A stretch of DNA of 64,000 bases from Bacteroidota bacterium (lineage in GTDB: Bacteria > Bacteroidota > Bacteroidia > B-17B0 > Aurantibacillaceae): positions 1-64,000 of the forward strand of contig JACCXH010000026.1 in NCBI GenBank assembly GCA_013697245.1, written 5' to 3'. The first letter of the stretch is position 1, and each line of letters opens with the position of its first letter. Under the pieces are notes generated by a model. The model did not search any database. It worked only from the letters and a program-made list of their open reading frames with translations, and had not been told where the DNA came from. This document shows positions 17,638-20,361 of the stretch, piece after piece. The position numbers and the translations under genes are program-made.

Positions 17638-17720
17638 ACAGATAAGTAGCGCCTATCTGCAAGTTAGTGGCAATGTGTCGACAGACGCATTTTCGAAAAA
17701 AGTCCCTAACTTAGACGACA

Positions 17721-18164
17721 ATGAAACATGAAAAATATCAACTTGAGTCGGACAGAAAACAGTTATTATTTGAGTTCACAAGCACTGGACCAAAAGGCAA
17801 AATAAAAAAACAGGTTCAATACTCTGAGACAAATCTCAAAAATTATTATATACTTGCTTTCGGTGATCACGACGAAAAGACAAATGATATTGACGATACA
17901 GTAATTACAAACAATGGCGACAGTAGAAAAGTCCTGGCGACAGTCGCAGCGACAGTTTACGCTTTTACCTTTAAACACCCAGAAGCATGGGTTCATATCG
18001 AGGGTAGCACACATATCCGGACACGCTTATACAGAATGGGAATCACAAACAACATTCTCGAAATCAAAAAGGACTTTATTGTCAACGGACTAAAAGACGA
18101 CAAATGGCTTCCTTTTCGCCGTGGAGTTGAATATGAAGCATTTTTAATCAAACGAAAAAAGTAG
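17721..18164 (+). CDS. DUF6934-like protein of unknown function
   Basis: The product is 147 residues, soluble, and starts at an ATG ten bases after the motif TTAGACGACAATG region begins. Recognisable segments are LFEFTSTGPKGKIKKQVQY, YYILAFGD, NNGDSRKVLATVAATVYAF and IEGSTHIRTRLYRMGI. Together they match my memory of the DUF6934 family in Bacteroidota, whose role is not established. A 53-residue lysine-rich ORF starts 13 bases downstream and may be its partner, which would resemble a two-gene toxin-antitoxin or defence cassette; this is speculation. The gene sits in a cassette-like unit between GTTAGTGGC (17663) and an attC-like palindrome (18335 onward). Confidence 0.6.
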   Translation: MKHEKYQLESDRKQLLFEFTSTGPKGKIKKQVQYSETNLKNYYILAFGDHDEKTNDIDDTVITNNGDSRKVLATVAATVYAFTFKHPEAWVHIEGSTHIRTRLYRMGITNNILEIKKDFIVNGLKDDKWLPFRRGVEYEAFLIKRKK

Positions 18165-18172
18165 TATATTTG
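18165..18172 (+). promoter_or_regulatory. Possible -7 promoter element (TATATTTG)
   Basis: TATATTTG matches TAnnTTTG and lies immediately after the DUF6934-like stop codon, four bases before the ATG of the next small ORF. A TTTT (18142-18145) sits at the -33 distance. If active it would give a leaderless mRNA for the small ORF. No other evidence. Confidence 0.35.
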
Positions 18173-18176
18173 TATC

Positions 18177-18338
18177 ATGACAGTTTCAATCAAAAAATTG
18201 AATAAAACTAAGACTCCTATCGTTAAAATCAACGACAAGTTGAATAAGCTTGCTGAAAAAGTTCTGTTTCCGGAAAAACTTAGAAAAGCGAACGACACTC
18301 TAAAAAGAGTTGGACTTCCAAAAACACACAGCCGCTAA
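18177..18338 (+). CDS. Small basic protein downstream of the DUF6934-like gene
   Basis: This 53-codon ORF reads MTVSIKKLNKTKTPIVKIND and continues to GLPKTHSR. It is rich in Lys and Leu, predicted helical, with no membrane segment or signal. It is 13 bases after the DUF6934-like gene and ends right at the attC-like palindrome, as a cassette gene would. A TATATTTG element lies just upstream of its ATG. No family is recognised. The ATG, codon use and position support a real gene, but its size keeps confidence moderate. Confidence 0.5.
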   Translation: MTVSIKKLNKTKTPIVKINDKLNKLAEKVLFPEKLRKANDTLKRVGLPKTHSR

Positions 18339-18507
18339 CAGCAACTACAAGTAATTGGCACGGACGAGGTCATCACAAAGCCAATTTATTGCCTGCTTAG
18401 CAGACTTTTAATTTTCTTTTGACTTTGCTAACAAACATTTGTACATTTAATAAACATTTGTGGTTATAGACAGTTGAGTGTTCCAAACGCCAACTACTTG
18501 TAGTCGC
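18335..18507 (+). repeat. attC-like palindromic site 1 (3' end displaced by the IS110 element)
   Basis: GCTAAC at 18334-18339 is followed by the arm GCAACTACAAGTAATTGGC (18341-18359). This pairs with GCCAACTACTTGTAGTCGC (18489-18507) at 17 of 19 positions, about 170 bases end to end. The inner segment GCTAACAAACATTT (18427-18440) is alignable with GCTAAGAAACATTT (20289-20302) of site 2. The expected terminal GTTA.TGG of the site is found on the far side of the IS element (GTTAATGG, 19766-19773), as if the element split the site. Confidence 0.65.
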
Positions 18508-18545
18508 ATTCCAAGGTAAAAAACAAATCTTTTAACAATTATTTT

Positions 18546-19550
18546 TTACGCTGCAAATTTATTCATCTCAACAAACGGTGTCCCTCTTTTAACTGTTGCA
18601 AAAATTCTTGAAACAATTTTATTGCGAATAATATTTAGCACAAGCATTTTTGGTTTACCTTCTTCTACTCTTTTCTTAAAATAAATTTTCAACTCTTTAT
18701 CTGACTGAATTGCACTTATGGCTGACATGGATAATAAGCTCTTCATTTTTTTATCACTGATGGAATGATTTCTTGGTTTGCGATGAATGCTCGTTCCTGA
18801 TTGATATGGAAATGGCACCAAGCCAAAATAGGATGAGAATTCTCGCCATGTTTCGAAACGAGTATAGTTGTGGGTATGTAATAACATTTGAGTTGCTAAA
18901 ACATTTCCTACACCTTTTACGCTTTTGCTCATCTTATAATTTTTCTGCATTTGATCTTCTGTTTTTATCAGAGTTTGCATTGCTTTTTCAACTTTCTTTA
19001 TTTGAACTTCCATATGCTTTAAGCTTTGCTTTATTATCCCAATACCTAGATCTCCTGTTTTCTTTTCTAAGGTTACTTGCATCCCTTTACTTAAGCTTTT
19101 TAAAGCCGTGCTTTGTTTTACAAGCTGTTCTCTCAAACTCATGAGTCTTTGCAGTTCAATTAATTTAACCGGCATAGGAATTGAAGTTTCTAATTCTTCC
19201 TTTCTTAACCACGCAAACCTGGCTATTTCTTCTGCATCTTGCTTATCTGTTTTTCCTCTTTTTAAACCCATTGAGCGTTTTATCTCTATTGGATTAACAC
19301 AACAGTAATGCTGTTTGTTTTCGTGCATAAAATGGCTCAGCAAAACGCAATACCATCCTGTGTGTTCAAAGCACCAGATCACCCCCTCTGTGTTCTTTGT
19401 TTCTTGTTTTACCCACTTAAGCAAACCTTCAAAGCCTTTCTTATTATTTAAAAACTGCTTGTGAAGTCGCTTTGTGTGAATAAACACATCTAAGGTTAGT
19501 TTGGATACATCAATACCAACACTCTCTTTAATTTCCTTCTCTTTTTTCAT
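18546..19550 (-). CDS. IS110-family transposase (DEDD recombinase)
   Basis: This is an RNA-guided recombinase of the IS110 family, 334 residues. The RuvC-like DEDD domain shows GIDVSKLTLDVFI (D14), WCFEHTGWY (E62) and KTDKQDAEEIARFA (D102, D105). A coiled-coil region covers about 130-205. The C-terminal transposase_20 domain has SVKGVGNVLATQMLLHTHNY, FSSYFGLVPFPYQSG with the probable catalytic serine at 251, and a basic tail. All key residues are present and the frame is intact, so it may be active. The non-coding end lies upstream of the gene, the arrangement of the IS110 group proper and not the IS1111 group. It is preceded by the bridge-RNA segment. Confidence 0.93.
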   Translation of the reverse strand: MKKEKEIKESVGIDVSKLTLDVFIHTKRLHKQFLNNKKGFEGLLKWVKQETKNTEGVIWCFEHTGWYCVLLSHFMHENKQHYCCVNPIEIKRSMGLKRGKTDKQDAEEIARFAWLRKEELETSIPMPVKLIELQRLMSLREQLVKQSTALKSLSKGMQVTLEKKTGDLGIGIIKQSLKHMEVQIKKVEKAMQTLIKTEDQMQKNYKMSKSVKGVGNVLATQMLLHTHNYTRFETWREFSSYFGLVPFPYQSGTSIHRKPRNHSISDKKMKSLLSMSAISAIQSDKELKIYFKKRVEEGKPKMLVLNIIRNKIVSRIFATVKRGTPFVEMNKFAA

Positions 19551-19574
19551 ACTTTTGTTTTTAACGTTAGTAAA

Positions 19575-19721
19575 TAAAACTTGCTTGACTATTGCCTTTA
19601 GCGGGCCTTAAAGCCTATCATTCCAATTGGTTCTAGCAAGTCTGAATATGGAAACGGGACTAATGCGACCATTAGGGCTTCTCACCTACAAAACGTTTAA
19701 GTTCACCCGTTTCCTATTCAG
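19575..19721 (-). ncRNA. IS110 bridge RNA (guide RNA for target and donor)
   Basis: Stem 1 pairs 19706-19720 with 19643-19658 (15 pairs, one bulge) and encloses a hairpin at 19660-19675. Stem 2 pairs 19635-19641 with 19579-19585 and encloses 19596-19613. Four guides lie in the order known for IS621. The left-target guide AACGTTTTG (19697-19689) equals the left-junction sequence at 19768-19760. The right-target guide GTCGCATT (19669-19662) is complementary to the right junction, whose plus strand reads the same at 18503-18510. The left-donor guide TTGGAATG (19626-19619) equals the right end of the element at 18514-18507. The right-donor guide CTAAAGGCAA (19601-19592) is complementary to the left end at 19762-19753. 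Transcript ends are approximate. Confidence 0.85.
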
Positions 19722-19752
19722 TTAATTTATTGTATTTTTATATAAATACAAA
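19722..19752 (-). promoter_or_regulatory. Possible promoter of the bridge RNA
   Basis: On the minus strand TTTG (19752-19749) and TAAATTAA (19729-19722) are exactly 19 bases apart. The -7 box matches TAnnTTTG at four of six fixed positions. The predicted start falls at the first bases of stem 1, which is slightly late, so the exact box is uncertain. Confidence 0.4.
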
Positions 19753-19819
19753 CTAAAGGCAAAACGTTAATGGTAATAGCCGAGAAGACATCGCAAAAAC
19801 AATTTCATAATTATTGCAA

Positions 19820-20140
19820 ATGCAGACAGACAAAAAAACATCGGACAGTTTTGGTAAACTCGCCAAAATAACTTCTAAATGGTGGTCGGTTATTCTTATT
19901 TTAATTCCCCAATTATTTTGTCAATTCTTATTTGCTTATCGAACAATAATTCATATTCCGGATGATCATGAATGTGGACCAGGTTCATTATTTGCGCCAT
20001 TATTTCTTACTGCTGCACTGACACTTCCTTTAGTTTTAATATTATATTTAGTAGGAGGCTTCACTTTAAAAGATAAACAAATTGCGTATTCATTGTTTTT
20101 TTTTCCGACTCTAATTAACATTGTGGTTTCATTCATTTAA
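19820..20140 (+). CDS. Small membrane protein of unknown function
   Basis: The product is 106 residues from the ATG at 19820 (MQTDKKTSDSFGKL); a TTG two codons upstream is less likely. Three hydrophobic helices are seen at about 23-42 (WWSVILILIPQLFCQFLFAY), 59-81 (PLFLTAALTLPLVLILYLVGG) and 87-106. The short loop between the first two is acidic with a His-Glu-Cys (DDHECGPG). No family is recognised. It is the single gene of the second cassette-like unit, lying between GTTAATGG (19766) and the attC-like site that starts at CCACTAAC (20197). Confidence 0.5.
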   Translation: MQTDKKTSDSFGKLAKITSKWWSVILILIPQLFCQFLFAYRTIIHIPDDHECGPGSLFAPLFLTAALTLPLVLILYLVGGFTLKDKQIAYSLFFFPTLINIVVSFI

Positions 20141-20196
20141 ATAAAATTAATGGTAGACGACACACGAGCACATGTTAAACTGTGTGTGGCTACAAC

Positions 20197-20361
20197 CACT
20201 AACAGCAAGCAAGCGCAAGCGGGCGGACGTATAAGGCTCTTGCAAATTTAAGGTCGCTTCGCATACAGAAATTTTCATTTTCCAAAAGGCTAAGAAACAT
20301 TTATTTTTAAATAAACGTTTCGGCAGACAATGTTTTATAAACCTGCATGCGCCTGCTTGGA
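20197..20361 (+). repeat. attC-like palindromic site 2
   Basis: CCACTAACAGC (20197-20207) leads into AAGCAAGCGCAAGCGGG, which pairs imperfectly with CCTGCATGCGCCTGCTTGG (20343-20361). The inner part GCTAAGAAACATTT (20289-20302), then ATAAACGTTT and GACAATGTTTTATAAAC, aligns with the corresponding inner part of site 1. Two copies with shared interior and diverged arms suggest a family of recombination or repeat sites. Confidence 0.6.

Follow-up and report, generated by a model that had tools for sequence, protein, structure and literature searches.

An IS110-group element with a predicted bridge RNA inserted at an attC-like site in a Bacteroidota genome

We analyzed a 64,000-nucleotide stretch of a Bacteroidota genome (the window), which carries a 1253 bp insertion sequence of the IS110 group on the minus strand (18507..19759). 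The length is counted from CCTTTAG at the left end to TTGGAATG at the right end, with the core counted with the right end; the junctions are set by four guide sequences, and the ends were found to be alike in homologues. The element encodes a 334-residue recombinase (18546..19550, minus strand) comprised of an RuvC-like DEDD domain (PF01548) and a C-terminal domain with a conserved serine (PF02371), the domain pair of the IS110 group, and matches NF033542, 'IS110 family RNA-guided transposase', at 170.7 bits against a cut-off of 140. Its closest solved proteins are ISCro4 (9t56, 85.5 bits) followed by IS621 (79 bits, phmmer). Alignment to IS621 (8wt6) and ISCro4 placed D14, E62, D102, D105 and S251 at the positions of D11, E60, D102, D105 and S241 of IS621, and all five catalytic residues are present. 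The non-coding left end upstream of the gene spans 209 bp and the right end 39 bp, also as in the IS110 group. The IS1111 group, with its long RNA-bearing right end and subterminal inverted repeats, does not fit the element, because here it is the left end that holds the RNA, with only 39 bp on the right. No further copies were found in the host genome, thus recent movement there is not directly seen, and no relatives were found in viral contigs.

The left end contains a segment (19579..19721, minus strand) that we assign as a bridge RNA on the basis of its fold, compensatory changes and a held-out covariance model. The first-pass annotation had proposed that this non-coding end forms two guide-loop domains, and both the fold and the compensatory changes bear this out. 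The segment folds into a target-binding loop domain (19642-19721, minus strand) and a donor-binding loop domain (19579-19641, minus strand) with a z-score of -4.1, and 0 of 200 shuffles were equally stable. Among ten homologues, pairing is kept in 95% of the cells of the 28 proposed pairs, and both sides have changed in 11 of the pairs, against a mean of 3.7 after shuffling and 0 to 2 when the partners were slid. Two stem domains with internal loops and compensatory changes are the features of an IS621-type bridge RNA. The annotation had also suggested a covariance model as a check. Eight homologues were used for the model, from which the window and its closest (79%) relative were left out, and it recovered precisely the minus-strand interval 19579-19721 (148.5 bits, E 1.4e-32, where E-values are rough), indicating a conserved structure. 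The same model located the RNA at nine further homologous loci, down to transposase identities of 36-38%; identities of only 33-46% were recorded for transposases with the RNA upstream. No Rfam family matches the segment. A score of 28.7 bits was also obtained with this model for the opposite strand (window 19643-19771, plus strand), probably due to the self-complementary RNA stems of the element.

Four guides can be read in this RNA, in the order left target, right target, left donor and right donor, which is the order of IS621, as the annotation had claimed. The left target guide, AACGTTTTG (19689..19697, minus strand), equals the left junction at 19768-19760, and the left donor guide, TTGGAATG (19619..19626, minus strand), equals the right end at 18514-18507 and is conserved in homologues. 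On the right-hand side of each loop, GTCGCATT at 19669-19662 is exactly complementary to 18510-18503, and CTAAAGGCAA at 19601-19592 is exactly complementary to 19762-19753. The last bases of these two matches cross the junctions: TT at 19662-19663 pairs with AA of the element right end, and A at 19592 pairs with T of the left target. Since these bases pair with the other partner, the right guides proper comprise six and nine bases, namely the right target guide GTCGCA (19664..19669, minus strand), complementary to TGCGAC at 18508-18503, and the right donor guide CTAAAGGCA (19593..19601, minus strand), complementary to TGCCTTTAG at the left end. The TT and A would occupy the position of the handshake guides in IS621, in whose structures the 'handshake' bases pair after strand exchange (PMC11208158). 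Both left guides pair with bottom strands and both right guides with top strands, with the core included in all four pairings.

Each guide is present once in the segment. The four matches proposed earlier are all exact. When the non-coding end was shuffled 20,000 times, the four never occurred together, and the guides taken singly arose in 0.2%, 1.2%, 0.3% and 0.2% of shuffles. We then scored every possible junction near each end by its matches in the RNA. The proposed left junction tied for best with one that is 1 base away (18 matched bases), and the right junction tied for best with two others within two bases (14 matched bases); only 0.3% of random window places reached 15 matched bases. 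Thus, the guides do define the element ends as had been claimed, to a precision of one base on the left and two bases on the right.

The guides overlap in TG at both junctions, the left target and right donor guides at 19760..19761 and the left donor and right target guides at 18507..18508 (both minus strand). In this respect the annotation, which gave TG as the sole common core, was correct; however, the DNA common to both junctions in the window is TGC, and for the family a plain TG core was amended in view of copies L020-L023, whose targets carry CG and whose donor ends carry TG. The target of L028 carries GG, so only the core G is invariant. Judged from these copies, the family core is better written as YG, with a relaxed first base. 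The IS621 core, which is CT, likewise has a nearly invariant second base and a relaxed first base (PMC11208158).

Next, we compared guides and flanks in 16 insertions from about ten genomes, read by eye, in which only four different guide sequences occur for the right target and four for the left. For the left target, guide and flank read TTTTG/TTTTG, TTTCG/TTTCG (L023) or TTCCG/TTCCG (L022), and otherwise differ by one wobble or mismatch. For the right target, guide and target read GTCGCA/TGCGAC in the window element, GCTGCA/TGCAGC in L017, L024, L026 and L033, GCGGCA/TGCCGC in L021 and GACGCA/TGCGTC in L032, and several copies are imperfect (e.g., one mismatch in L023, L029 and L030). The pairing of each guide with its own flank exceeds that of shuffled combinations on both sides, which answers the check proposed in the annotation (permutation P 4e-5 on the left and 1.2e-4 on the right for the 16 copies, and 8e-4 and 1.6e-3 with one copy per genome, values that are optimistic since the copies are related by descent). 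Covariation of guides with the target across relatives is a property of IS621-type systems, and it bears out the proposal that element, guides and target are consistent with one another beyond family resemblance. Such coordinated changes on opposite strands appear hard to explain other than by guiding.

Two homologous copies are unusual. At L019 (2250-2330), the left end of a homologue carries a tandem duplication, CCTTTAGTTTG CCTTTAGTTTG, and the right flank is not attC-like, perhaps due to self-insertion or to a rearranged or chimeric contig. A degenerate copy at L031 / L076 retains an intact target loop (AACGTTTCG, TCTGCA) but its donor loop is altered and the standard ends were not found; the donor loop may have been reprogrammed, or the copy may be dead.

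Four further copies share a variant right end. In L018, L025 and L028 the usual junction of TTGGAATG with the right target is replaced by TTGGA|CG, an attC-like spacer and then the right target; L038 has TTGTA|CG ahead of the same arrangement. These copies have different flanks and come from three genomes, with the breakpoint at one place. The inserted bases vary (CGATTTG, CGTTTTG, CGTTCCG and CGGTTTG) but in each case resemble the attC-like site's own spacer, and the breakpoint appears to match the integron integrase cut position, AA^C. We considered that an integrase might have inserted a cassette into the right end, but no consistent remnant of ATG and the right target was found downstream. 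A circle that carried the old left target may be the origin of these ends.

Comparison of the two element ends points to a promoter that would form on their joining. The right end contains TTTG (18524..18527, minus strand), as an upstream promoter half, with TTG equally far from the end in 17/17 copies. The left end contains TTAGTTTG (19749..19756, minus strand), a downstream, -7-like half. In the circle, 20 bases would separate it from TTTG, and all 17 copies compared have CCTTTAGTTTG or CCTTAAGTTTG in the left end. The primary promoter of Bacteroidota has TTTG near -33 and TAnnTTTG near -7 (PMC7366714). The joined ends are therefore predicted to form a promoter of the Bacteroidota type, conserved among the copies, from which the bridge RNA could be transcribed, and IS621 also forms a promoter on circularization (PMC11208160). 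A circular intermediate may be expected from IS621, and the one feature in its favor here is the conserved promoter across the would-be junction.

The element interrupts a repeated site. Its left flank, CCATTAACGTTTTG (19760..19773, minus strand), resembles the R'-like outer end and spacer of an attC site, and its right flank (18332..18506, minus strand) provides the stem and the other end, GTTAGCGG. The right-flank repeat is found at 15 places in the host genome, in same-orientation arrays with ORFs between the sites. Uninterrupted relatives of the site in the host read AACGGTTTGCGACTACAAG on C30 and GACGTTTTGCGACTACAAG on C12, with the exact match starting at the core. The sites are imperfect palindromes, many of whose ends read RYYYAAC / GTTRRRY, with several individual ends one base off this consensus. 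The array ends were read by hand, as the automatic attC-like finder was too insensitive, and in nine hand-picked pairs the ends of successive sites that face each other over an ORF are complementary at 39/45 positions, compared to 21.7 for shuffled pairing (P 1e-5). Ends that are complementary across the cassette, together with RYYYAAC / GTTRRRY, are the signature of integron gene cassettes. In the window, the array extends over 17657-20210, with further site ends near 20196-20210 and 17657-17673. Integron-like arrays with attC-like sites, whose ends are complementary across cassettes, lie here as well as at L065 (7000-11500, minus strand) and L066 (7500-13500), in a Bacteroidota genome without a recognizable IntI. 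Judged by its sequence, the target is one of the attC-like sites of such an array, and the insertion point falls between its stem and its conserved outer end. The flanks had been correctly matched to the guides in the annotation, which missed the cassette nature of the site.

Integrons also carry an IntI integrase gene. For this array, neither the host nor any of eight IS-bearing genomes gave a TIGR02249 match above the cut-off, and the search returned only sub-threshold tyrosine recombinases. In UKL13-3 (G868), a tyrosine recombinase lies approximately 2 kb upstream of an IS110 copy, beside a transposase (L089, 8999-10967), and several similar tyrosine recombinases occur elsewhere in that genome. 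We dropped it as a candidate integron integrase because it lies in an apparent operon with this zinc-binding transposase, which we take to be IS91-like.

Taken together, we propose with high confidence, from the sequence relationships above, that this is an IS110-group element which moves by bridge-RNA-guided recombination in the manner of IS621 (PMC11208160, PMC11208158), with an attC-like target and guides that change with the local site. By analogy to IS621, the element would leave as a circle, in which the joined ends would place TTTG 20 bases before TTAGTTTG as a promoter for the bridge RNA. Two recombinase dimers would bind the target and donor loops. Both loops show exact complementarity to their predicted partners, AACGTTTTG/TGCGAC in the target for the target loop and TTGGAATG/TGCCTTTAG at the circle junction for the donor loop. 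S251, with the DEDD site, would then cut the two top strands after the core G; strand exchange would follow, and the Holliday junction would be resolved on the bottom strands. Among relatives, the guides change along with the local version of the attC-like site.

The same matches might arise from ancestry, if the protein recognized one conserved site and the RNA merely held copies of the end and the target. Most attC-like sites of this type share the left target AACG-TT-G, so agreement of the left target guide is weak on its own, and the right target guide allele GCTGCA is common to most copies. We nevertheless regard shared ancestry as very improbable, since the flanks differ as the guide alleles do, on both sides (window, L017, L021 and L032; L022 and L023), and the left and right guides match opposite strands, as the IS621 structure requires. 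Still less credible is that the segment regulates the transposase gene in cis, as a leader or attenuator, as its strong structure and position directly upstream of the transposase start might suggest: a leader would not be expected to contain four exact guide matches in order, nor loops that covary with sequences outside the element, and only the circle would bring the promoter together.

A separate question concerns the target, which could instead belong to dispersed REP-like palindromes rather than to the attC sites of a cassette system. The site arms are longer and less regular than those of classic attC sites, and no IntI exceeded the TIGR02249 cut-off in the host and the eight IS-bearing genomes. 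We consider REP-like palindromes unlikely, though less so than the two readings of the RNA above, given the same-orientation arrays with an ORF between successive sites, the complementarity of facing ends in the nine hand-picked pairs and the frequent RYYYAAC / GTTRRRY ends.

We compared the bridge-RNA-guided, attC-directed element proposed here to known systems. IS621 from Escherichia coli similarly has a DEDD and serine recombinase, a bridge RNA in the left end with the same guide order, a dinucleotide core inside all four pairings, a circle-junction promoter and a palindromic repeat target. Its target is REP, whereas the window element lies in an attC-like site; its promoter is of the sigma-70 type, whereas the promoter halves here resemble the Bacteroidota consensus; and its right target guide pairs over 4 to 7 bases, against 6 in the window element as read here. 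ISCro4, of the IS110 group, is likened to the element by protein only. ISKpn4 and ISPst6 of the IS1111 group (seekRNA) also show RNA-guided insertion at one end of attC (PMC11187229; Post and Hall 2009), but their RNA lies downstream of the transposase and they have subterminal inverted repeats, whereas the window element belongs to the IS110 group, has its RNA upstream and resides in Bacteroidota. ISEc21 / ISMch6 (IS110 family) share the upstream guide RNA and the natural redirection by changed guide bases (PMC11187229), but have a linear target inside IS3-family transposase genes.

The mechanism is thus a recently discovered one, of which the element is a new case; this assignment is very well supported computationally. 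Targeting of attC by the IS110 family is not new, because IS1111-group elements are already known to target attC (PMC11187229); within a literature search of limited reach, attC targeting by an IS110-group lineage of Bacteroidota is apparently unreported. The system adds a fully readable bridge RNA from Bacteroidota, with a guide-target series over about ten genomes, and offers a test of which core base is fixed. It is also a candidate for recombination tools in that phylum, because the promoter suits Bacteroidota and the core is not CT. The target sites hint at integron-like cassette arrays in a phylum in which a 2022 IntegronFinder survey found very few integrons (PMC9024848). With somewhat more confidence than doubt, we suggest that an IS110-group lineage in Bacteroidota may have specialized on the attC-like sites of a widespread, little-noticed cassette system without a recognizable IntI, in which guide alleles would track the host-specific variable arm and provide a natural series of reprogrammed bridge RNAs.
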